64,000 bases of DNA, from positions 170,758,664-170,822,663 of the forward strand of contig CP136066.1 in NCBI GenBank assembly GCA_032622095.1, written 5' to 3'. The translations under genes were made by a program, and so were the position numbers. Shown one piece after another: positions 1 through 56,879 of this stretch. A model generated the notes under the pieces. The model was not told the DNA's origin, searched no databases, and saw nothing but the letters and a program-made list of their open reading frames with translations. This DNA is from Siphonodentalium dalli (taxonomy: Eukaryota; Mollusca; Scaphopoda; Gadilida; Siphonodentaliidae). Within the stretch, counting starts at the first letter, position 1, and every line of letters starts with the position of its first letter.

Positions 1-403
1 ATTCTCATTATCATAATCGTGACGATTTATCTCTTATTAAGTATTGTGTAGGTCTCATTGATTCTCATTATCATAATTGTGATGAGTTATCTCTTAATAA
101 GTATTGTGTAGGTCTCATTGATTCTCATTATCATAATTGTGATGAGTTATCTCTTAATAAGTATTGTGTAGGTCTCATTGATTCTCATTATCATAATTGT
201 GATGAGTTATCTCTTAATAAGTATTGTGTAGGTCTCATTGATTCTCATTATCATAATTGTGATGAGTTATCTCTTAGTAAGTATTGTGTGGGTCTCATTG
301 ATTCTCATTATCATAATTGTGATGAGTTATCTCTTAATAAGTATTGTGTAGGTCTCATTGATTCTCATTATCATAATCGTGACGATTTATCTCTTATTAA
401 GTA

Positions 404-3400
404 TTGTGTTTGTCTCATTATCATCATTGTGACGAGTTATCTCTTATTAAGTATTGTGTAGGTCTCATTGATTCTCATTATCATAATTGTGATGAGTTAT
501 CTCTTATTAAGTATTGTGTTGGTCTCATTGATTCTCATTATCATAAGTGTGATGAGTTATCTCTTATTAAGTATTGTGCATGTCTCATTGATTCCCATTA
601 TCATAATTGTGATGAGTTATCTCTTATTAAGTATTGTTTAGGTTGCATTGATTCTCATTATCATAATCGTGACGATTTATCTCTTATTAAGTATTGTGTA
701 GGTCTCATTGATTCTCATTATCATAATTGTGATGAGTTATCTCTTAATAAGTATTGTGTAGGTCTCATTGATTCTCATTATCATAATTGTGATGAGTTAT
801 CTCTTAATAAGTATTGTGTAGGTCTCATTGATTCTCATTATCATAATTGTGATGAGTTATCTCTTAATAAGTATTGTGTAGGTCTCATTGATTCTCATTA
901 TCATAATTGTGATGAGTTATCTCTCAATAAGTATTGTGTGGGTCTCATTGATTCTCATTATCATAATTGTGATGAGTTATCTCTTAATAAGTATTGTGTA
1001 GGTCTCATTGATTCTCATTATCATAATCGTGACGATTTATCTCTTATTAAGTATTGTGTTGGTCTCATTATCATCATTGTGACGAGTTATCTCTTATTAA
1101 GTATTGTGTAGGTCTCATTGATTCTCATTATCATAATTGTGATGAGTTATCTCTTATTAAGTATTGTGTTGGTCTCATTGATTCTCATTATCATAAGTGT
1201 GATGAGTTATCTCTTATTAAGTATTGTGCATGTCTCATTGATTCCCATTATCATAATTGTGATGAGTTATCTCTTAATAAGTATTGTGTAGGTCTCATTG
1301 ATTCTCATTATCATAATTGTGATGAGTTATCTCTTAATAAGTATTGTGTAGGTCTCATTGATTCTCATTATCATAATTGTGATGAGTTATCTCTTAATAA
1401 GTATTGTGTAGGTCTCATTGATTCTCATTATCATAATTGTGATGAGTTATCTCTTGATAAGTATTGTGTAGGTCTCATTGATTCTCATTATCATAATTGT
1501 GATGAGTTATCTCTTAATAAGTATTGTGTAGGTCTCATTGATTCTCATTATCATAATCGTGACGATTTATCTCTTATTAAGTATTGTGTTGGTCTCATTA
1601 TCATCATTGTGACGAGTTATCTCTTATTAAGTATTGTGTAGGTCTCATTGATTCTCATTATCATAATTGTGATGAGTTATCTCTTATTAAGTATTGTGTT
1701 GGTCTCATTGATTCTCATTATCATAATTGTGATGAGTTATCTCTTATTAAGTATTGTGCATGTCTCATTGATTCCCATTATCATAATTGTGATGAGTTAT
1801 CTCTTATTAAGTATTGTGTTGGTCTCATTGATTCCCGTTACCATAATTGTGATGAGTTATCTCTTATTAAGTATTGTGTATGTCTCATTGATTCTCATTA
1901 TCATAATTGTGATGAGTTATCTCTTATTAAGTATTGTGTGCGTCTCATTGATTCTCATTATCATAATTGTGATGAGTTATCTCTTAATAAGTATTGTGTA
2001 GGTCTCATTGATTCTCATTATCATAATTGTGATGAGTTATCTCTCAATAAGTATTGTGTGGGTCTCATTGATTCTCATTATCATAATTGTGATGAGTTAT
2101 CTCTTAATAAGTATTGTGTAGGTCTCATTGATTCTCATTATCATAATCGTGACGATTTATCTCTTATTAAGTATTGTGTTGGTCTCATTATCATCATTGT
2201 GACGAGTTATCTCTTATTAAGTATTGTGTAGGTATCATTGATTCTCATTATCATAATTGTGATGAGTTATCTCTTATTAAGTATTGTGTTGGTCTCATTG
2301 ATTCTCATTATCATAAGTGTGATGAGTTATCTCTTATTAAGTATTGTGCATGTCTCATTGATTCCCATTATCATAATTGTGATGAGTTATCTCTTAATAA
2401 GTATTGTGTAGGTCTCATTGATTCTCATTATCATAATTGTGATGAGTTATCTCTTAATAAGTATTGTGTTTGTCTCATTGATTCTCATTATCATAATTGT
2501 GATGAGTTATCTCTTAATAAGTATTGTGTAGGTCTCATTGATTCTCATTATCATAATTGTGATGAGTTATCTCTTAATAAGTATTGTGTGGGTCTCATTG
2601 ATTCTCATTATCATAATTGTGATGAGTTATCTCTTAATAAGTATTGTGTAGGTCTCATTGATTCTCATTATCATAATCGTGACGATTTATCTCTTATTAA
2701 GTATTGTGTTGGTCTCATTATCATCATTGTGACGAGTTATCTCTTATTAAGTATTGTGTAGGTCTCATTGATTCTCATTATCATAATTGTGATGAGTTAT
2801 CTCTTATTAAGTATTGTGTTGGTCTCATTGATTCTCATTATCATAAGTGTGATGAGTTATCTCTTATTAAGTATTGTGCATGTCTCATTGATTCTCATTA
2901 TCATAATTGTGATGAGTTATCTCTTATTAAGTATTGTTTAGGTTGCATTGATTCTCATTATCATAATCGTGACGATTTATCTCTTATTAAGTATTGTGTA
3001 GGTCTCATTGATTCTCATTATCATAATTGTGATGAGTTATCTCTTAATAAGTATTGTGTAGGTCTCATTGATTCTCATTATCATAATTGTGATGAGTTAT
3101 CTCTTAATAAGTATTGTGTAGGTCTCATTGATTCTCATTATCATAATTGTGATGAGTTATCTCTTAATAAGTATTGTGTAGGTCTCATTGATTCTCATTA
3201 TCATAATTGTGATGAGTTATCTCTCAATAAGTATTGTGTGGGTCTCATTGATTCTCATTATCATAATTGTGATGAGTTATCTCTTAATAAGTATTGTGTA
3301 GGTCTCATTGATTCTCATTATCATAATCGTGACGATTTATCTCTTATTAAGTATTGTGTTGGTCTCATTATCATCATTGTGACGAGTTATCTCTTATTAA

Positions 3401-4300
3401 GTATTGTGTAGGTCTCATTGATTCTCATTATCATAATTGTGATGAGTTATCTCTTATTAAGTATTGTGTTGGTCTCATTGATTCTCATTATCATAAGTGT
3501 GATGAGTTATCTCTTATTAAGTATTGTGCATGTCTCATTGATTCCCATTATCATAATTGTGATGAGTTATCTCTTAATAAGTATTGTGTAGGTCTCATTG
3601 ATTCTCATTATCATAATTGTGATGAGTTATCTCTTAATAAGTATTGTGTAGGTCTCATTGATTCTCATTATCATAATTGTGATGAGTTATCTCTTAATAA
3701 GTATTGTGTAGGTCTCATTGATTCTCATTATCATAATTGTGATGAGTTATCTCTTGATATGTATTGTGTAGGTCTCATTGATTCTCATTATCATAATTGT
3801 GATGAGTTATCTCTTAATAAGTATTGTGTAGGTCTCATTGATTCTCATTATCATAATCGTGACGATTTATCTCTTATTAAGTATTGTGTTGGTCTCATTA
3901 TCATCATTGTGACGAGTTATCTCTTATTAAGTATTGTGTAGGTCTCATTGATTCTCATTATCATAATTGTGATGAGTTATCTCTTATTAAGTATTGTGTT
4001 GGTCTCATTGATTCTCATTATCATAATTGTGATGAGTTATCTCTTATTAAGTATTGTGCATGTCTCATTGATTCCCATTATCATAATTGTGATGAGTTAT
4101 CTCTTATTAAGTATTGTGTTGGTCTCATTGATTCCCGTTACCATAATTGTGATGAGTTATCTCTTATTAAGTATTGTGTATGTCTCATTGATTCTCATTA
4201 TCATAATTGTGATGAGTTATCTCTTATTAAGTATTGTGTGCGTCTCATTGATTCTCATTATCATAATTGTGATGAGTTATCTCTTATTAAGTATTGTGTA
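404..4300 (+). repeat. Higher-order duplication in array A, 2300-bp offset
   Basis: The block starting at 404 recurs at 2704, with only a handful of differences over about 1.58 kb (for example TCCCAT against TCTCAT near 590/2890, and GATAAG against GATATG near 1453/3753). Both blocks are split by the same 50-bp monomer markers into 650-, 530- and further-length units. Between them lies a 590 plus 530 variant. This points to recent unequal exchange or rolling-circle amplification of multi-monomer blocks rather than single monomers. Confidence 0.88.
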
Positions 4301-6908
4301 GGTCTCATTGATTCTCATTATCATAATAGTGATGAGTTATCTCTTATTAAGTATTGTGTAGGTCTCATTGATTCTCATTATCATAATTGCGATGCGTTAT
4401 CTCTTATTAATTATTGTATATGTCTCATTGATTCCCATTATCATAATTGTGATGAGTTATCTCTTATTAAGTATTGTGTAGGTCTCATTGATTCCCGTTA
4501 TCATAATCTTGACGATTTATATCTTATTAAGTATTGTGTAGGTCTCATTGATTCTCATTATCATAATTGTGATGAGTTATCTCTTATTAAGTATTGTGTA
4601 GATCTCATTGATTCTCATTATCATAACTGTGATGAGTTATCTCTTATTAATTGTTGTGTTGGTCTAATTGATTCTCTTTATCATAATTGTGACGAGTTAT
4701 CTCTTATTAAGTATTGTTTAGGTTGCATTGATTCTCATTATCATAATTGTGTTGAGTTATCTCTTATTAAGTATTGTGTAGGCCTCATTGATTCTCATTA
4801 TCATAATTGTGACGAGTTATCTCTTAATAAGTATTGTGTAGGCCTAATTGATTCTCATTATCATAATTGTGACGAGTTATCACTTAATAAGTATTGTGTA
4901 GGTCTAATTGATTCTCATTATCATAATTGTGACAAGTTATCTCTTAATAAGTATTGTGTAGGTCTAATTGATTCTCATTATCATAATTGTGACGAGTTAT
5001 CTCTTAATAAGTATTGTGTAGGTCTAATTGATTCTCATTATCATAACTGTGATGAGTTATCTCTTATTAAGTATTGTGTGGGTCTCATTGATTCTCATTA
5101 TCATAATTGTGACGAGTTATCTCTTAATAAGTATTGTGTAGGTCTAATTGATTCTCATTATCATAATCGTGTTGAGTTATCTCTTATTAAGTATTGTGTA
5201 GGTCTCATTGATTCTCGTTGTCATAATTGTGACGAGTTATCTCTTAATAAGTATTGTGTAGGTCTAATTGATTCTCATTATCATAATTGTGATGAGTTAT
5301 CTCTTAATAAGTATTGTGTAGGTCTCATTGATTCTCATTATCATAATTGTGATGAGTTATCTCTTGATATGTATTGTGTAGGTCTCATTGATTCTCATTA
5401 TCATAATTGTGATGAGTTATCTCTTAATAAGTATTGTGTAGGTCTCATTGATTCTCATTATCATAATCGTGACGATTTATCTCTTATTAAGTATTGTGTT
5501 GGTCTCATTATCATCATTGTGACGAGTTATCTCTTATTAAGTATTGTGTAGGTCTCATTGATTCTCATTATCATAATTGTGATGAGTTATCTCTTATTAA
5601 GTATTGTGTTGGTCTCATTGATTCTCATTATCATAATTGTGATGAGTTATCTCTTATTAAGTATTGTGCATGTCTCATTGATTCCCATTATCATAATTGT
5701 GATGAGTTATCTCTTATTAAGTATTGTGTTGGTCTCATTGATTCCCGTTACCATAATTGTGATGAGTTATCTCTTATTAAGTATTGTGTATGTCTCATTG
5801 ATTCTCATTATCATAATTGTGATGAGTTATCTCTTATTAAGTATTGTGTGCGTCTCATTGATTCTCATTATCATAATTGTGATGAGTTATCTCTTATTAA
5901 GTATTGTGTAGGTCTCATTGATTCTCATTATCATAATAGTGATGAGTTATCTCTTATTAAGTATTGTGTAGGTCTCATTGATTCTCATTATCATAATTGC
6001 GATGCGTTATCTCTTATTAATTATTGTATATGTCTCATTGATTCCCATTATCATAATTGTGATGAGTTATCTCTTATTAAGTATTGTGTAGGTCTCATTG
6101 ATTCCCGTTATCATAATCTTGACGATTTATATCTTATTAAGTATTGTGTAGGTCTCATTGATTCTCATTATCATAATTGTGATGAGTTATCTCTTATTAA
6201 GTATTGTGTAGATCTCATTGATTCTCATTATCATAACTGTGATGAGTTATCTCTTATTAATTGTTGTGTTGGTCTAATTGATTCTCTTTATCATAATTGT
6301 GACGAGTTATCTCTTATTAAGTATTGTTTAGGTTGCATTGATTCTCATTATCATAATTGTGTTGAGTTATCTCTTATTAAGTATTGTGTAGGTCTCATTG
6401 ATTCTCATTATCATAATTGTGACGAGTTATCTCTTAATAAGTATTGTGTAGGCCTAATTGATTCTCATTATCATAATTGTGACGAGTTATCACTTAATAA
6501 GTATTGTGTAGGTCTAATTGATTCTCATTATCATAATTGTGACAAGTTATCTCTTAATAAGTATTGTGTAGGTCTAATTGATTCTCATTATCATAATTGT
6601 GACGAGTTATCTCTTAATAAGTATTGTGTAGGTCTAATTGATTCTCATTATCATAACTGTGATGAGTTATCTCTTATTAAGTATTGTGTGGGTCTCATTG
6701 ATTCTCATTATCATAATTGTGACGAGTTATCTCTTAATAAGTATTGTGTAGGTCTAATTGATTCTCATTATCATAATCGTGTTGAGTTATCTCTTATTAA
6801 GTATTGTGTAGGTCTCATTGATTCTCGTTGTCATAATTGTGACGAGTTATCTCTTAATAAGTATTGTGTAGGTCTAATTGATTCTCATTATCATAATTGT
6901 GATGAGTT
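3884..6908 (+). repeat. Higher-order duplication in array A, 1610-bp offset
   Basis: 3884 to about 5298 is repeated almost base for base at 5494 to about 6908, including rare variants such as the CTTGACGATTTATATC monomer, the GACAAG monomer and the TCGTTG monomer. One visible difference is GGCCTC (near 4771) against GGTCTC (near 6381). The unit is 26 full monomers plus one 50-bp monomer, the longest higher-order unit seen here, and the downstream copy leads into the divergent edge of the array. Confidence 0.88.
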
Positions 6909-7931
6909 ATCTCTTATTAAGTATTGTGTGGGTCTCATTGATTCTCATTATCATAATTGTGACGAGTTATCTCTTAATAAGTATTGTGTAGGTCTAATTG
7001 ATTCTCATTATCATAATTGTGTTGAGTTATCTCTTATTAAGTATTGTGTATGTCTCATTGATTCTCATTATCATAATTGTGATTCGTTATCTCTTATTAA
7101 TTATTGTATATGTCTCATTGATTCCCATTATCATAATTGTGATGGGTTATCTCTTATTAAGTATTGTGTAGGTCTCGTTGATTCCCGTTATCATAATTGT
7201 GATGAGTTATATCTTATTAAGTATTGTGTAGGTCTCATTGATTCTCATTATCATAATTGTGATAAGCTATCTCTTATTAAGTATTGTGCATGTCTCATTG
7301 ATTCCCATTATCATAATTGTGATGAGTTATCTCTTATTAAGTATTGTGTAGGTCTCATTGATTCTCATTATCATAATTGTGATGCGTTATCTCTTATTAA
7401 TTATTGTATATGTCTCATTGATTCTCATTATCATAATTGTGATGAGCTATCTCTTATTAAGTATTGTGCATGTCTCATTGATTCCCATTATCATAATTGT
7501 GATCAGTTATCTCTTATTAAGTATTGTGTAGGTCTCATTGATTCTCATTATGATAATTGTGATGCGTTATCTCTTATTAATTATTGTATATGTCTCATTG
7601 ATTCCCATTATCATAATTGTGACGAGTTATCTCTTATTAAGTATTGTGTAGGTCTCATTGATTCTCATTATCATAATTGTGATGAGTTATCTCTTAATAA
7701 GTATTGTGTAGGTCTAAAAGAATCTCATTATCATAATTGTGATGAGTTATATCTCATTAAGTATTGTGTTGGTGTCATTGATTCTCATTGTTATAATTGT
7801 GATTAGTTATCTCTTAATAGGTATTGTGTAGGTCTCATTGATTCTCATTATCATACCTGTGATGAGTTATCTCTTATTAAGTATTGTGTAGGTCTCATTG
7901 ATTCTCATTGTTATAATTGTGATGAGTTATT

Positions 7932-8086: not shown

Positions 8087-8446
8087 TAATTATGCCATCG
8101 ATTGTTAAATATTGATTTTAAGGACATATTCGCCCTTAAAATACGATTGAAACAAGGAACTATATGTTCTCAAATAACAGACAAGACTTGAGCCGAAAAC
8201 AACTCGCTGCATTCCCGCCCGAATAATATCGATCGATCTGCAGATCTGCAGATCGAGTGGGTTTTTCCCGAACGTATGTCAAGGACGAAACAAAACATTA
8301 ATAAACTTTTGATCAAAATTAAACATTATTAGCAGAATTTTGGAAGAGGAAAATATACAGTTAGTCTCCATGTCAACTGGGAATCATGAACATGCGATAA
8401 TCAAAAAGTTTAGTGAGAATTTTCTTACAGGAATCCTCCTATCTAT
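7932..8446 (+). repeat. Dispersed unit A, copy 1 (hairpin plus flank)
   Basis: 515 bases nearly identical to 10167-10681: the hairpin followed by about 360 bases of non-coding sequence containing a short palindrome ATCTGCAGATCTGCAGAT near 8238. The two copies part exactly after CCTCCTATCTAT. Here unit A is followed by unit B. In the second copy it is followed by a different sequence. It looks like a transposable-element segment with a sharp right end. No protein is recognisable in it. Confidence 0.85.
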
Positions 8447-37590: not shown

Positions 37591-40500
37591 GGTATTGTGT
37601 GGGTCTCATTGATTCTCATTATTATAATTGTGATGAGTTATCTCTTATCAGGTAGTATGTAGGTCGCATTGATCTCATTATTATAATTGTGACGAGTTGA
37701 TTCTCATTATAATTGTGATGAGTTATCTCTTATTAAGTATTGTGTAGGTCTCATTGATTCCCATTATCATAATTGTGATGAGTTATCTCTTATTGAGTAT
37801 TGTGTATGTCTCATTGATTCTCATTATCATAATTGTGATGAGTTATCTCTTATTAAGTATTGTGTGGGTCTCATTGATTCTCATTATCATAATTGTGACG
37901 AGTTATCTCTTATTAAGTATTGTGTGGGTGTCGTTGATTCTCATTATAATTGTGACGAGTTATCTCTTATTAAGTATTGTGTAGGTCTCATTGATTCTCA
38001 TTATAATTGTGACGAGTTATCTCTTATTAAGTATTGTGTGGGTCTCATTGATTCTCATTATAATTGTGACGAGATATCTCTTATTAAGTATTTTGTAGGT
38101 CTCATTGATTCTCATTATCATAATTGTGATGAGTTATCTCTTATCAAGTATTATGTAGGTCTCATTGATTCTCATTATCATAATTGTGATGAGTTATCTC
38201 TTATTAAGTATTGTTTTTGGGTCTCATTGATTCTCATTATTATAATTGTGATGAGTTATCTCTTATTAAGTATTGTGTAGGTCTCATTGATTCCCATTAT
38301 CATAATTGTGATGAGTTATCTCTTATTAAGTATTGTGTAGGTCTCATTGATTCTCGTTATCATAATTGTGATGAGTTATCTCTTATTAAGTATTGTGTAG
38401 GTCTCATTGATTCTCATTATCATAATTGTGATGAGTTATCTCTTAATAAGTATTGTGTAGGTCTCATTGATTCTCATTATCATAATTGTGATGAGTTATC
38501 TCTTATTAAGTATTGTGTATGTCTCATTGATTCTCATTATCATAATTGTGATGAGTTATCTCTTATTGAGTATTGTGTATGTATCATTGATTCTCATTAT
38601 CATAATTGTGATGAGTTATCTCTTATTAAGTATTGTGTGGGTCTCATTGATTCTCATTATCATAATTGTGATGAGTTATCTCTTATTAAGTATTGTATAT
38701 GTCTCGTTGATTCTCCTTATCATAATTGTGTTGAGTTATCTCTTGTTAATTATTGTGTGGGTCTCATTGATCCTCATTATCATAATTGTGACGAGTTATC
38801 TCTTATTAAGTATCATGTAGGTCTCATTGATTTTCATTATCATAATTGTGACGAGTTATCTCTTATTAAGTTTTGTGTAGTTCTCATTGATTCTCATTAT
38901 CATAATTGTGATGAGTTATCTCTTATTAAGTATTGTGTAGGTCTGGTTGATTCCCATTATCATAATTGTGATGAGTTATCTCTTATTAAGTATTGTGTAG
39001 GTCTCATTGGTTCTCGTTATCATAATTGTGACGAATTATCTCTTATTAAGTATTGTGTAGGTCTCATTGATTCTCATTATCATAATTGTGATGAGTTATA
39101 TCTTATTAAGTATTGTGTAGGTCTCATTGATTCTCATTATCAAAATTGTGATGAGTTATCTCTTATTAAGTATTGTGTAGGACTCATTGATTCTCATTAT
39201 CATAATTGTGATGAGTTATCTCTTATTAAGTATTGTGTAGGTCTCATTGATTCCCATTATCATAATTGTGATGAGTTATATCTTATTAAGTATTGTGTAG
39301 GTCTCATTGATTCTCATTATCATAATTGTGATGAGTTATCTCTTATTAAGTATTGTGTAGGTCTCATTGATTCTCATTATCATAATTGTGACGAGTTATC
39401 TCTTATTAAGTATTGTGTAGGTCTCATTGATTCTCATTATCATAATTGTGACGAGTTATCTCTTATTAAGTATTATGTAGGTCTCACTGATTCTCATTAT
39501 CATAATTGTGATGAGTTATCTCTTATTAAGTATTGTGTAGGTATCATTGATTCTCATTATCAAAATTGTGATGAGTTATCTCTTATTAAGTATTGTGCAG
39601 GTCTCATTGATTCTCATTATCATAATTGTGATGAGTTATCTCTTATTAAGTATTGTGTAGGTCTCATTGATTCTCATTATTATAATTGTGACGAGTTATC
39701 TCTTATTAAGTATTGTGTAGGTCTCACTGATTCCCATTATCATAATTGTGATGAGTTATCTCTTATTAAGTAATGTGTAGGTCTAATTGATTCTCACTGT
39801 CATAATTGTGATGAGCTATCTCTTATTAAGTATTGTGCAGGTTTCATTGATTATCATTATCATAATTGTGATGAGTTATCTCTTATTAAGTATTTTGTAA
39901 GTCTCATTGATTATCACTGTCATAATAGTGATGAGTTATTTCTTATTTCGTTTTGTATAGGTCTCATTGATTCTCATTATAATAATTGTGATGAGTTATC
40001 TCTTATTATGTATTGTGTAGGTCTCATTGATTCTCGTTATCATAATTGTGATGAGTTATCTCTTATTAAGTATTGTGTAGGTCTCATTGACTCTCATTAT
40101 CATAATTGTGATGAGTTATTTCGCATTAAGTATTGTGTAGGCTTCAATGATTCTCATTATCATAATTGTGATGAGTTATCTCTTATTAAGTAATGTGTAG
40201 GTCTCATTGATTTTCACTGGCATAATGGTGATGAGTTATCTCTTATAAAGTATTCTGTAGGTCTCATTGATTCTCATTATCATAATTGTGAAGAGCTATC
40301 TCTTATTAAGTATTGTGCAGGTCTCATTGATTCTCATTATCATAATTGTGATGAGTTATCTCTTATTAAGTATTGTGTAAGTCTCATTGATTATCACTGT
40401 CATAATGGTGATGAGTTATTTCTTATTTCGTTTTGTATAGGTCTCATTGATTCTCATTATAATAATTGTGATGAGTTATCACTTATTGAGTATTGTGTGG

Positions 40501-42165
40501 GTATCATTGATTCTCCGTTATCATACTGGTGATGAGTTATCTCTTATTAAGTATTGTGTAGGTCTCATTGATTCCCATTATCATAATTGTGATGAGTTAT
40601 CTCATATTAAGTATTGTGTAGGTCTCATTGATTCTCATTATCATAATTGTGATGAGTTATCACTTATTGAGTATTGTGTGGGTCTCATTGATTCTCCGTT
40701 ATCATACTGGTGATGAGTTATCTCTTATTGAGTATTGTGTAGGTCTCATTGATTCTCATTATCATAATTGTGATGAGTTATCTCTTATTAAGTATTGTGT
40801 AGGTCTTATTGATTCTCATTATCATAATTGTGAAGACTTATTTCTTATTGAGTATTGTGTAGGTCTCATTGATTCTCATTATCATAATTGTGATGAGTTA
40901 TTTCTTATTAAGTATTGTGTAGGTATCATTGATTCTCATTATAATAATTGTGACGAGTTATCTCTTATTAAGTATTGTGTAGGTCTCGTTGATTCTCATT
41001 ATAATAATTGTGATGAGTTATCTCTTATTAAGTATTGTGTAGGTCTCATTGATTCTCATTATAATACCTGTTATGAGTTATCTCTTATTAAGTATTGTGT
41101 ATGTTTCATTGATTCGTATACAAATAATTGTGATGAGTTATCTCTTATTAAGTATTGTGTAGGTCTCATTGATTCTCATCATCATACTTGTGATGAGTTA
41201 TCTCTTATTAAGTATTGTGTAGGTCTCATTGATTCTCATTATCATAATTGTGATGAGTTATCTCTTATTAAGTATTGTGTAGGTCTCATTGATTCTCATT
41301 ATAATAATTGTGACGAGTTATCTCTTATTAAGTATTGTGTAGGTCTCGTTGATTCTCATTATAATAATTGTGATGAGTTATCTCTTATTAAGTATTGTGT
41401 ATGTCTCATTGATTCTCATTATAATACCTGTTATGAGTTATCTCTTATTAAGTATTGTGTATGTTTCATTGATTCGTATACAAATAATTGTGATGAGTTA
41501 TCTCTTATTAAGTATTGTGTAGGTCTCATTGATTCTCATCATCATACTTGTGATGAGTTATCTCTTATTAAGTATTGTGTAGGTCTCATTGATTCTCATT
41601 ATCATAATTGTGATGAGTTATCTCTTATTAAGTATTGTGTAGGTCTCATTGATTCTCATTATAAATAATTGTGACGAGTTATCTCTTATTAAGTATTGTG
41701 TAGGTCTCATTGATTCTCATTATAATACCTGTTATGGGTTATATCTTATTGAGTATTGTGTATGTTTCATTGATTCGTATACAAATAATTGTGATAAGTT
41801 ATCTCTTATTAAGTATTGTGTAGGTCTCATTGATTCTTATTATCATACTTGTGATGAGTCATCTCTTATTAAGTATTGTTTAGGTTTCATTGATTCTCAT
41901 TATAATACCTGTTATGAGTTATCTCTTATTAAGTATTGTGTATGTTTCATTGATTCGTATACAAATAATTGTGATGAGTTATCTCCTACTAAGTATTGTG
42001 TAGGTCTCATTGATTCTCATTATCATACTTGGGATGAGTTATCTGTTATTAAGTAGTGTGTAGATTTCATTGATTATTATAACAATTATTGTGACGAGTT
42101 ATCTCTTATTAAGTATTGTGTAGGTCTCATTCATTCTCATTATTATAATTATGATGAGTTATTTA
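37591..42165 (+). repeat. 60-bp satellite, array B
   Basis: About 75 copies of the same monomer as array A, in the same orientation, but more heterogeneous. It includes three 57-bp monomers (37921-38091, lacking 3 bases), 2-base insertions near 38215, 61-bp monomers near 40510 and 40690 and one near 41660. One frame again stays open for long stretches (38211-39773 and 40628-41668). The right edge ends in ...GATGAGTTATTTA, the same monomer phase at which array A ends. Confidence 0.97.
40921..41640 (+). repeat. 360-bp higher-order unit, duplicated, in array B
   Basis: Six-monomer block 40921-41280 is repeated at 41281-41640 with very few changes. It is marked by the rare monomers TATAATACCTGTTATGAG and TCGTATACAAATAATTG. 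Further partial copies follow to about 42000. A separate 480-base duplication is visible at 39901 and 40381 (monomers ending TTTCGTTTTGTATAG). Confidence 0.85.
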
Positions 42166-49535: not shown

Positions 49536-49635
49536 GTACTCAGGCATTATTTCATGCCGTGCATTTAATTTAATTGTGATATATATATATATAACAATTA
49601 AATTAAATGCACGACATGAAATAATGCCTGAGTAC
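49536..49635. repeat. 100-bp MITE-like hairpin
   Basis: GTACTCAGGCATTATTTCAT pairs with ATGAAATAATGCCTGAGTAC, and the arms continue through AATTTAATTGT with one visible mismatch. The loop is an (AT)n run. Total about 100 bases. Confidence 0.93.
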
Positions 49636-51000: not shown

Positions 51001-51984
51001 AGTGGCCTAATAAACATTTACAGCGCCGGAATCAACAAACGGCGAAAATTCGGGTACTGCCAGTAAACTCACCTAATAAACTAGACGCGTGATTCCGTCT
51101 GGTGTATAAGTGCCGACAATACAAATAGTGTAGGTAGTTAGCGTTTTGATCAATACATGTCGGATAAAAGCGCCATTTTTTCATATCTTGTAGGACAGCA
51201 TCTCTAGCCTAGGAATTTTCTCAAGAACCAACTTTTTGACCGACGTAGAGCCGAAAATTCAAGATGGCGTCCAAGATGGCCGCCGGTTTGACGATGGTAC
51301 ACCTAATAGTTTTGCTTCTCAATTAGATATGTTAAACATAACGAATTCCACCCTATTATCTAAGAATGGTGGTTACCGAATAACAGCCCACACTTTTATT
51401 TGAAAAATGGCCACAATTATTCAAGATGGATGCCAAAATGGCGGCCAAAACATGGAAATGTTTGGTTTCGTCCTTATTTTTGTTAAAATACTTTACAATT
51501 TTCGAGATAATATAAGAGAAGATATCAACAATGTGTTGATTATTCGATAGAATAACCTCTGTGAAAGAGTCTTGCACACTAAATGCGAAGTAGTATAGTT
51601 TGTTCTGGTACAAATGTGAGGTAGAATATGTGCTATGTAAAATGAGCAAAATTATTCTAAGACAGGGGTTCATTCTGTAAATGCTTGGAAACTAACCATG
51701 AATGGTTCTGATGTCTTCAATTCTATTTGTGACACTACTACATGGTTGGATCAATTGAATACAAATTTGAATATCGAGATCGTAACAAATAAAAAATCAA
51801 TTTAGTAGTGGATTTACCACGAAATTAGGAAACACCAAATGACAAAACCCATAATCGTCAAACTCAATTCGGTTCTCAAAATAGGAACATATGTATGGTA
51901 TTCTGCAACACATCTTCATCATCGGGCCTCGTATTCAAATTACCAATAATTTGAAATTTGAAAATACACTTTGTTTTTAATAAA

Positions 51985-52740
51985 CTGTATTTAACAATTC
52001 ACTTCTCACAACCACATCTGCACAACTTCGTACATGGAAGTTTGCTTCTTGAACATTTGCACCTGGAACAAACCGATTTGCAAACACATTTAATCAACTC
52101 TGTGCACTCTCTAGCTGCTTCTGGGTTGTCATCCAAACAGTAACAAAAGATCCGCCAATCAATTTCCATCCAAAGACGTCAGGTGCTGGAAACTTTACAT
52201 GTGCTATGGGGCTTACTAGTACAGTCCAGATACCAGCCTGATATATATATATATATATATGTTGAACTGTGCTGAACATTTCATGTATTGCTTCATTAAC
52301 TAAAGTCAGGTTCACAGATTTGTCATAAACAATCACATCGAAATGCTAAATACTCTCAAACAGTGGCGATGAAACATCAAGAACCACACACGGATTCCTC
52401 GTATTGGCATCAAGCATTCTGTGAGCTAAGCTTTCCAAGCATCCCAAAATTGCGCTTACCCTTACCAAGGAAAAAGGGAGTTGAGTCGCATCCTGATATC
52501 GGGTGGAATATTGGAAGTACAGTTGAATTTTTGTTAGCCCATTGAATTGCACGTATCAACTATGTTGTATGTAACATGGGGTTTAGATTTCTCGAAAGAC
52601 AAAGAGTTTCAAATGTTTGCATTGAAAAAGCATAGCATACAGATGTCCCAACATGACCACGATAATATATGTGTCAACAGTGTGAACAATAATCGAAGAA
52701 TTATCGGTTTGTAGCATATGAAATATATGTTCTTCTCACA
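51985..52740 (-). pseudogene. Nuclease-like family, C-terminal two-thirds (left arm)
   Basis: Minus-strand fragments in shifting frames: a G-C-D-S-T motif at about 52494-52480 followed by a GKGKRNF-like stretch, then NPCVVLDVSSPLFE, then VIVYDKSVNLTLVNEA, then YQAGIWTVLVSPIA and FGWK. The C-terminal cysteine-rich block (about 52105-51990) is intact, with CVCKSVCSRCKCSRS and PCTKLCRCGC. The inverse duplicate is on the right arm. The order and motifs match a gene family that I recall as very abundant in mollusc and cnidarian genomes. At least one stop (after SPLFESI) and frameshifts are present. Confidence 0.7.
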
Positions 52741-52837
52741 CGAAAACCAGCGGTTCCCCCATCTATATCGAAAGTGGGCGAAAGCAGGGGTGGTAATAAA
52801 TGTGACATCCTAAGCTGCATGAAGGTCCCATCCGATT

Positions 52838-54830
52838 CAAACTACATAGACACTGCAGAGCCAAATCCAAAGGTCGAGTGTAAGGTGTTCGACGGGGGGT
52901 GCTCTGATACACTTACTGAGACATGAGGTCGGGCATACCTTCTCAATGTATATCAGCACAACGTTTATACATATGTTATGATGCAGCTCCCAGATAGTAG
53001 AAGAATTGACTTGGTTTTGGACAGGTAAATATAGGTTAGTATCAAAACAGGAACATGAGAGAAACGTGGTTGTGGCATTCGATGTAAGGTTGGGGCTTAC
53101 CACAAAAATTCCAACGAATTGGAATGACTTTCTAAGAAACACCACCAACAAGCAAGTATTGTTTGCATTGGTCAATGAATGTCTCTTTAAATTGGAAACC
53201 CTACCAAAGAAAACTATCTTCACAACGGAGGATGATAACGCGGTCCTAATTTGGAACCTATTCTCTTTGGATGCACATATGAAGAAGCTGACAGTAGATT
53301 AGTCGGACATATATCTCATATGCTGCAACTCATTATTTATCGATTATTGTTCAAGGATATTTACAAGGATATTATCGTGATTCTAGTGTGACATATGCAT
53401 GCTAAGCTACTACTCCAATGCAAAGATTTGGAACTGTGTCTTTCGACAAGTCTAAGTCCCATGTTATCCGCAACATAGTTGATATGTACAATTCAATTAG
53501 GCTCAGAAAATTCAACTGTGCTTTCAATATTCCATCATTTCCATGTGATATCAGGATGCGACTCAACTTCCTTTTTCTTTGGTAATGGTAAGCGCACATT
53601 TTGGGATGCTTGAAAAGCTTACCCAGAGCTAACAGAATGCTTGATGTCAATTACGAGGAATCCTTTTGTGGCACTTGATGGTCTATCACCACTATTTGAG
53701 TGTATTTAGCATTTCGTCGTGATTGTTTATGACAAATCTGCGAACCTGACCTCAGTTAATGAAGATAGACATGAAATGTTCAGCAAAGGCCGTGCACATG
53801 AACAGTTACCACCAAAGAAATTGTGCTACTAGTATACATCAGGCTGGTATATGGACTGTAAGCCCCATAATAGATGCAAAGTTTCCAGCACTAGACTCAC
53901 TGGGGGGAAACTGTTTCACAAGAGTCGATTCTATCGCCTTTTCGGTTTTGTCTCTATCGAACTAAGGCCCGACTCTTTCGCGATTAAACACAACTGTTTT
54001 CAAAAGTTTTGACCGCCATTTATACACTAAATATCAAAACAGAACTATTTTCTAAACAAATATCCGTAGATTAGGTCTTTGCTCGTGCTTATTGATGATA
54101 ATAATGCGAAATCAGCTATTTTTGTGCACACTTTGAGGCATAATGCGTTTTTGTGCATTTCCTATGTAAATTAAGCAGCAATTTGATGATAAGTTTATCG
54201 ACCTTGATACTTTTAGTTGGCTGGAACATGTCTCATTATGTGATCGAACACCAGGACATTATATTAACCTATAATGTTCGATCATAAAACCTAACAAGTT
54301 CAGCCCAATTTAAATGTGATGAGGCTGAAAAGCTGAGCATCAAACTGTTGCTCAATTCTCGTGGGAAATACACACAAATGCACGTCTCTAAATGTGCACC
54401 ACAAGCAGCTATTGCATTGCTATCATCAATAAGCACGTACAGAGACCTAATCTGTCGGTTGTTATTGAAGAATACTTTCTGTATTGATATTCAGTGTATA
54501 AACAGCCTATCAAAACTTTGAATATTTTTTAACAAACCGCGAAAGAGTCTGAACTTAATTGATAGAGACGAAACCGGAAGGGTGATAGAATCGATTCTGG
54601 TGAAACAGTTTTCCCCCCAGTGTGACTACTTCGGGTGAAAATTTATTGACGATTCTTTTGTTCTTGTATGGTTGACAACCCCAGACGTGGCTAGAGTGTG
54701 CACCGAATTGATTAAATTTGTATGAAATCGGTTTGTTCCAGGTGCAAATGTTCAAAAAGCAAACTTCCATGTACGGAGTTGTGCAGATGTGGTTGTGAGT
54801 AGTGAATTGTTCAATTCAGTTTATTAAAAC
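52838..54830 (+). pseudogene. Nuclease-like family pseudogene (loop and right arm)
   Basis: The fullest copy, read across shifting frames: NPKVECKVFDGG (about 52865), SRRIDLVLD (about 52999), EKRGCGIRCKVG overlapping TTKIPTNWNDFLRN (about 53060-53150), then after a frameshift CTYEEADSRLVGHI (about 53271), SGCDSTSFFFGNGKRTFWDA (about 53551-53610), PFVALDGLSPLFE and VIVYDKSANLTSVNE. A nested hairpin (53895-54617) splits it, then a decayed WxTTPDVAR and Cys-rich tail. E-E-A-D-x-R, an acidic middle and G-C-D recall the acidic residues of FEN1/PIN-like 5' nucleases (EAEA, DxD, GCDY). This functional reading is inference. The Cys-rich tail resembles CXC-type zinc domains. Multiple stops and shifts mean it is not expressed as a full protein. 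Confidence 0.7.
53895..54617. mobile_element. Nested 0.7-kb palindrome
   Basis: Left CACTGGGGGGAAACTG pairs with right CAGTTTTCCCCCCAGTG. Complementarity continues through TCGATTCTATC, GCGAAAGAGT and GATTAGGTC to the centre near 54255. It interrupts the nuclease-like pseudogene between the segments that are contiguous in the left arm, so it inserted after the large palindrome formed. The termini CACTG recall CACTA-type ends, but no clear target duplication is seen. Confidence 0.85.
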
Positions 54831-55946
54831 AAAGTGTATTTTCAAATTTACTGATCCCATCTTCCCACCACATGGCACCCTGGAGTATATCTCAGCAACA
54901 ATATAACACTCAAAAGTATACAAATGCATATATATTATTGAATCTGCGCTATTCGCATGATTGTGTTTCATGTTCTGTTGCTGAAATAATTGAGGACACT
55001 ATATGATACAAGGAAATAATATTATTTCTTACTCCGAACTCAACTATACTTTCGGGTATACGCTTCAATCATTTTGTGCATAATTGGACATAAAACACTG
55101 AATTTAAGTATTGGTAATTTGAATACGAGGCCTGATGATGAAGATATGTTGCAGAATACCTTCCATATGGTCTTGTTTTTTAGAACTAAATTGAGTTTGA
55201 TGAGCATGGGGTCTGTCATTTAGTGTTTCCTAATTTCGTGGTAAATCCACTACTAAATTGATTTTTTATTTGTAAATATCTCGACATACAAATTTTTATT
55301 CAATTGATCCAATCATATAGTAGTGTCGCAAATAGAATTGATGACATCAGGGTCATTCACGGTTGGTTATTAAGCATTTACAGAATGAAACACAGTCTGA
55401 GAATAATTTCATTTATTTTATATAGCACATATTCTACCTCACATTTCTACCAGAACGAACAATACTACTTCACCTTTAATGTGCATAACTCTTCCACAGA
55501 AGTTATTCCATCGAATAATGAACACATAGTTGATATCTCTCTTATATTATCTCGAAATTGTAAAGTATTTATTTTTTAAATAAGGATAAAAAAACAATTT
55601 CTCATGTTTTGGCCGCCATTTTGGCATCCATCTTGAATAATTGTGGCCATTTTTCAACTAAAAGTCGCGGTTGTTATTCTATGAACACTAATATTAGATA
55701 GTGTTGAGGAATTCGTTATGTTTACCATATCAATCAAGAAGCAAATCTATTAGGTGTGCCACCGTCAAACCGGCGGCCATCTTGGACGCCATCTTGAATT
55801 TTCGGCTCTACGTCGGTCAAAAAGTTGGTTCTTGAGAAAATTCCTAGACTAGAGATGCTGTCCTACAAGATACTAAAAAATGGCGCTTTTATCCGACTTG
55901 TATCGATCGGAGCATTTTTTGTCACTAACTACCTACACTAAAAGGG

Positions 55947-56356: not shown

Positions 56357-56820
56357 ATATGTCTTTTGCCAACAAGTCGGTACATAATATGATGGGGGAA
56401 AAATAATGGTTGTCAGTGAAATCATTGCTCAAAGTTACAGCGGTTCACTACCACTATCCGAGTCGGCGGACGGACATAATTATATATAAATTAAATTTGC
56501 TGCCGAAAAACTATGATATTTGGCGTCATTTATCGTAGCTGGTTTGTACAAATCAGCTGATGTTTTTACATATTCACGAAGGTCTGTCTTTTGCCAACAA
56601 GAATATATACGATATGATGGGGAAAAAATAATGTTTGTCAGTGAAATCATTGCTCAAAGTTACAGTGGTTCACTACCACTATCCGAGTCGGCGGACGGAC
56701 ATAATTATATAGAAATTAAATTTGCTGCCGAAAAACTATGATATTTGGCGTCTTTTATCGGAGCTGGTTTGTACAAATCAGCTGATGTTTTTACATATTC
56801 ACGAAGGTCTGTCTTTTGCC
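56357..56820 (+). repeat. About 229-bp tandem duplication
   Basis: TGTCTTTTGCCAACAAG at 56357 and 56586 and a third start at 56811. The copies share GTCAGTGAAATCATTGCTCA, CCACTATCCGAGTCGGCGGA and CTGATGTTTTTACATATTCA. No protein is recognised. Confidence 0.9.
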
Positions 56821-56879
56821 AAAATGCCATGCCCCATTGAAGCTCTTGTTGCACACTATGGCGGGGATCGCTTTTAGGA

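Follow-up and report, generated by a model that had tools for sequence, protein, structure and literature searches.

A foldback element in Siphonodentalium dalli derived from a DNA transposon with a predicted FEN/EXO1/XPG-type nuclease

Results

We analysed a stretch of 64,000 nucleotides (nt; hereafter the window) from the scaphopod mollusc Siphonodentalium dalli (assembly GCA_032622095.1, contig CP136066.1, positions 170,758,664 to 170,822,663). The window contains a dead, broken, hairpin-shaped foldback copy of a nuclease-carrying transposon (Table 1). An earlier, sequence-only reading had assigned the interval 52838-54830 to a nuclease-like gene family, which misses the true unit, the complete inverted repeat. 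The sequence TAGTGTAGGTAG occurs in the window without mismatch only at 51126-51137 (plus strand) and 55929-55940 (minus strand). Between these ends, nested inverted arms of 362, 177, 154, 137, and 105 nt and smaller ones are 73-95% complementary around a center near 53000 (among the 25 of 40 arm pairs listed). The motifs named in the earlier reading are present: EEADSR, previously placed at about 53274, GCDST on both strands, IPTNWNDFLRN, and the Cys block. They are spread over different frames that are interrupted by stops. Across the six frames of the window, EEADxR and GCDST add up to three occurrences, each inside the foldback element. BLASTN of the window against a longer element from the same genome, L029 (hereafter the parent), yielded matches with 77-82% identity (855, 830, 1,208, and 1,350 columns), all with E = 0.0; thus, the motifs are not due to chance.

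Table 1. Features of the foldback element in the window.
Feature	Position	Strand	Basis or remark
Whole foldback element, 4,815 base pairs (bp)	51126-55940		mismatch-free 12-base termini and AAA 3-bp target duplication at flanks
Left terminal repeat	51126-51181	+	94.6% to parent 1-56 (BLASTN)
Left arm, inverted parent 7457-5544	51126-52730	-	BLASTN against L029 element
Cys-rich CXC-like tail, left-arm copy, fuller block	52008-52088	-	ten Cys countable from ECTELIK onward
GCDST, left-arm copy	52479-52493	-	motif search
Inversion junction joining parent 5544 (minus) and 4954 (plus)	52727-52730		4-base overlap between BLAST pieces
Right arm, first piece, parent 4954-6143, nuclease gene pieces	52727-53898	+	BLASTN
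KVECKVFDGG	52870-52899	+	right arm, first piece
IPTNWNDFLRN	53108-53140	+	right arm, first piece
EEADSR	53281-53298	+	right arm, first piece
GCDST	53554-53568	+	right arm, first piece
Nested insert, about 720 bp, own terminal inverted repeats	53899-54622		flanking parent pieces overlap by 6 bases
Right arm, second piece, parent 6138-7457, Cys-rich tail and right terminus	54623-55940	+	BLASTN
Cys-rich tail, right-arm copy, seven Cys	54734-54796	+	motif search

The left terminal repeat begins with TAGTGTAGGTAGTTAGCGTTTTGA, the left end of the parent, while the remaining arm is the inverted right end of the parent. This arm encodes the 3' end of the element, comprising the C-terminal half of the nuclease and the CXC-like tail, with a gap between parent positions 6364 and 6626. 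In the first piece of the right arm, 377 codons were compared and 6 stops break the frame. The window copy has lost parent 57-4953, a stretch of about 4.9 kb that includes the putative transposase core. From this layout we concluded that the window copy arose by inverted duplication of the parental 3' end, which codes for the nuclease. The nested insert has inverted ends CACTGGGGGGAAACTGTTTCAC, and about 6 bases of its host element are duplicated.

The genome (2.23 Gb, nine contigs) was searched for relatives. Using a frame of 106 amino acids (aa) from the window, the best 150 of 656 candidates were scored and all 150 matched. None of the 28 loci L001-L028, which represent 27 distinct loci as L002 and L028 are one place, has a motif-bearing frame of at least 250 aa. 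A search with a better-kept piece of 190 aa (L012:5328-5897), of which the best 150 of 2,228 candidates were scored, revealed long open frames, including ones of 1,509, 1,507, 1,187, and 798 aa at 70-72% identity. The frame of 1,509 aa is that of L029 (2550-7076, plus strand, stop to stop). At 759-776 and 8198-8215, L029 is bounded by 18-bp terminal repeats (TAGTGTAGGTAGTTAGCG) that match perfectly and have TTC flanks; it defines a parent type of 7.46 kb (7,457 bp) with 3-bp target duplications. The prediction that an intact copy would lie within terminal repeats was thus borne out by one stop-free copy inside an element with TAGTGTAGG termini. L030 and L031 are approximately 99% identical to L029 over 6.7 kb and have the same right terminus; the frame of L031 is split. 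In their left parts (L030:1-1500 and L031:7700-8501), internal repeats match several stretches of parent 780-1210. The terminal-repeat scan covered 33 sequences, allowing up to three mismatches, and gave 17 end pairs 4-8.5 kb apart. An exact 3-bp duplication flanked 15 of these 17 pairs and a 4-bp duplication none, at a random expectation of 0.021 per pair.

Judged from its sequence, the parent protein of about 1,500 aa would consist of a Cys/His-rich N-terminus, a putative DDE transposase core, a C-terminal FEN/EXO1/XPG-type nuclease, and a CXC-like tail. In the middle region, D108, D280, E313, and E491 are invariant in all five rows compared, and by motif reading only we infer a transposase core of the DDE type. 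In the tail, each of eight Cys is conserved in at least 12 of the 13 nuclease rows. Their order and rough spacing in L029 (C-x-C-x3-C-x2-C-x-C-x6-C-x3-C-x-C, compared by eye) resemble those known for the TSO1/tesmin CXC domain; in contrast to that domain, none of the 13 nuclease rows is matched by Pfam. Hence, of the CXC-like tail proposed earlier, the Cys spacing held up and a Pfam assignment did not follow. Pfam also returned no family for the L012 fragment. Among six window fragments, one matched Cep3 (E 0.0039, 16.2 bits at a cut-off of 22.5), which we took as chance. Relatives outside this genome were found neither in viral contigs, with a single sequence or an alignment, nor in genome contigs, the collections being viral and prokaryotic; three phage matches at E about 2 were weak and likewise taken as chance.

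The earlier reading had suggested a FEN/PIN-type nuclease, and structure prediction for a relative from the same genome agrees with this. According to Foldseek, the C-terminal model adopts the fold of the XPG/Rad2/FEN/EXO1 superfamily over model residues 37-408, and the parent element is therefore predicted to encode a nuclease of this type. The acidic residues follow the proposed order in a fuller form than claimed (VFDG, VWD, EEAD, DTD, GCD): D69, D108, D112, E202, E203, D205, D229, and D231 occur in 13 of 13 nuclease rows and D292 in 11. In its predicted fold and in the order D, D, E-A-D, D-x-D, and GCD, followed by an invariant G-K, the nuclease agrees with EXO1, FEN1, XPG (Rad2), and GEN1. 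Unlike these enzymes, it is part of a fusion with a transposase-like protein and a CXC-like tail; its identity to them is 8-16%, and neither Pfam nor PDB sequence profiles detect it. Two further sequence searches of solved structures gave one match at E 1.8 and no match, respectively. The ratios of nonsynonymous to synonymous substitution rates (dN/dS) between window pieces and L029 were 0.31 over 371 codons (dS 0.41, excluding 6 stops) and 0.22 over 232 codons (dS 0.55, excluding 2 stops). These ratios mainly mirror the long lineages of the parent, where they suggest conservation of the nuclease part. The predicted fold would also be compatible with a host FEN-like gene family, a pseudogene of which had by chance ended up within a repeat in the window. 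We consider this origin extremely unlikely, given that the L029 frame sits between terminal repeats with a target duplication, that the best 150 of 656 candidate places all matched, and that sequence identity with related solved nucleases is so low.

The window junction is common to 24 of the 27 distinct loci (within 12 bases). The insert lies at the same parent site in 23 of them, and the left-arm gap near 6364-6630 is found in 18. In this comparison L001-L008 span just 3.3 kb, and L012, L017, and L021 are without adjacent inverted pieces. The computed insert length is 601-747 in most loci and deviates in L013 (4,724) and L016 (2,446). A 121-base query across the junction matched all of the best 40 of 339 candidates scored, window included, at 98-100% identity. 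Taken together, the common junction, the insert, and the matches to the junction query point to a single founder from which the window-type foldbacks multiplied. As it occupies the same site in 23 loci, the nested insert probably predates this amplification. L028, located on another contig, is 99.73% identical to the window copy over 4,815 bp with differing flanks, whereas the arms are 73-95% complementary to each other; the structure is therefore old and its spread partly recent. At G000:C3:121152094-121164460, covered in part by L013, four foldback copies are spaced regularly at about 4,025 bp and seemingly form a tandem array that grew from a foldback element, like a new satellite. Beside the foldback copy in L010, a reverse-strand frame of 280 aa (L010:8507) resembles, by eye, part of a reverse transcriptase of the long interspersed nuclear element type.

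A second family is represented by L032. Further relatives in this genome share 36-47% identity with L032, and several of their frames (1,133 to 1,534 aa) are stop-free in the matched stretch. The family ends in TAGTCAGGTGGCTTAGCA, a terminal repeat read from its foldbacks, and both of two copies have 3-bp duplications (CTA and AAT, read by eye); a terminal-repeat search for left ends of the L032 element found none. The foldbacks L043 and L044 have a common junction (2764 to 3059 of reversed L032, six-base overlap), and L046 has a separate one (3076 to 4216, three-base overlap). L045, considered as a fourth inversion founder, carries the junction of the window family. The two families thus have three different junctions between them, all of which retain the nuclease end and show overlaps of 3-6 bases; this number is too small to demonstrate a preference for this end. 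In the right arm of L043 (2915-4693) a stop-free frame of 593 aa contains the whole nuclease and the tail; the youth of this copy may explain the open frame. The other arm has a frame of 546 aa and seems to have lost the tail by a shifted frame.

The frame in L043 and the retention of the nuclease end in both families would fit the proposal of the earlier reading that the foldbacks themselves are the vehicle of a mobile nuclease gene, with the nuclease as their working product. For L032 together with the L043 and L044 arms, however, the ten pairwise dN/dS values ranged from 0.51 to 1.04, indicating relaxed selection on the foldback-borne nuclease, and strong selection on it was looked for in these arms and not found. 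Moreover, the window arms carry stops, long motif-bearing frames are absent from L001-L028, the tail is seemingly missing from the second arm of L043, and the nuclease forms the C-terminal third of a far larger protein. Based on these results, we regard foldbacks as carriers of the nuclease gene as very improbable.

Apart from the foldback element, the window contains a 225-bp unit repeated 2.1 times with 94% matches just to its right (56360-56822) and a near-perfect, spacer-free palindrome of 100 bp at 49536-49635 (96% complementary). One 60-bp tandem repeat occupies 1-7930 and 37697-42162 in about 133 and 75 copies, respectively, at 90-91% matches; both arrays are strongly AT-skewed (about 29% G+C).

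Discussion

Taken together, our data make it likely that the window element is a non-autonomous foldback of a cut-and-paste DNA transposon, whose AcademX-like parent would encode a transposase-nuclease protein of about 1,500 aa. Several results weigh against this reading. The parent is complete with both ends in L029 alone, as L030 and L031 were seen at the right end, and an exact 3-bp duplication is missing from two of the 17 end pairs, one of which belongs to L028 (cta/ctc), the near-identical copy. The model of the transposase core has a predicted local distance difference test score (pLDDT) of 41.5, and the Pfam match to DUF6589 is weak (two of five members, best E 0.0028; the L032 frame reaches 13.9 bits at a cut-off of 27). 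For the nuclease, Foldseek gave modest TM-scores, with a TMq of 0.26-0.42 for rows of this kin. None of the 13 rows matches any Pfam family at E 5, although the absence of a match is compatible with kinship, and searching PDB profiles yielded four hits, all to other proteins (E 0.052 to 2.3). In addition, the Asp of GCD, the last in the acidic order, is absent in two of the 13 nuclease rows.

Academ elements have terminal inverted repeats; their nuclease is called XPG in Repbase, and an eight-Cys finger has been noted for them. KDZ/Zisupton elements have target duplications of 8 bp, which is longer than the 3 bp found here and led us to reject this group. Within the Academ superfamily (Kojima), the AcademX lineage has been described as encoding a nuclease and creating target duplications of 3 or 4 bp (accessible part of PMC10045372). 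The 3-bp duplications and the encoded nuclease of the parent agree with this, and the parent likely fits the AcademX lineage, as matched by description; the element is thus probably a further case of an already catalogued kind. The expectation that a mobile nuclease family of this sort would be new is accordingly weakened, because such a lineage is in print. A difference from our element is that the accessible part of that paper (PMC10045372) does not describe foldbacks formed when the nuclease end is duplicated in inverse orientation. The AcademH lineage, with 9- or 10-bp duplications and a helicase, was rejected, as the parent has 3-bp duplications and a Pfam search of the 1,509-aa frame at E 10 detects no family, hence no helicase. 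A literature search returned no paper containing both the words Academ and XPG and none pointing to this element. Given that the AcademX match relies on duplication length and nuclease as compared with a printed description, and that Pfam assigns no family to the 1,509-aa frame or the nuclease rows, the parent might instead belong to a separate, unnamed DNA-transposon superfamily that acquired a FEN/EXO1-like nuclease independently. We consider this rather unlikely, since 3-bp duplications combined with a nuclease are described for AcademX (PMC10045372, accessible part).

Long inverted arms around a short center are characteristic of Foldback (FB) and other long-inverted-repeat transposons, and the window element is similar in this respect. 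It differs in that its arms correspond to the coding end of an identified parent, on which the inversion junction can be placed. A second nuclease beside the transposase is also found in the DNA transposons KolobokE, KolobokD, and KolobokP; according to the accessible part of PMC9587614, their accessory nucleases have other folds (lambda-exonuclease-like, DEDDh, and His-Me finger).

In a transposon of the AcademX-like kind preferred here, the transposase core would cut and join the element ends, and the nuclease would trim a flap or a recessed (resected) end arising in excision, joining, or gap repair. As the junctions suggest, template switching during excision-gap repair, both inside the terminal repeats and where a few bases matched, may have produced the inverted duplicate of the 3' end. 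That other sites hold near-identical copies is consistent with a spread of the foldback in trans, driven by intact copies. By resection or flap trimming of excision gaps, the element's own EXO1/FEN-like nuclease might even drive microhomology template switches at the terminal repeats and so give rise repeatedly to nuclease-end foldbacks, some of which, of the L043 type, would express a free, trans-acting nuclease; we consider such a role quite improbable.

For a family that is abundant in this genome and lacks a Pfam nuclease domain, the analysis assigns a predicted fold, defines a set of invariant residues, and supplies one example of full length, and it accounts for the origin of the repeat-like relatives of the parent family. 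A DNA transposon with a flap/exonuclease-type repair enzyme would represent a case of an element that brings its own repair step.
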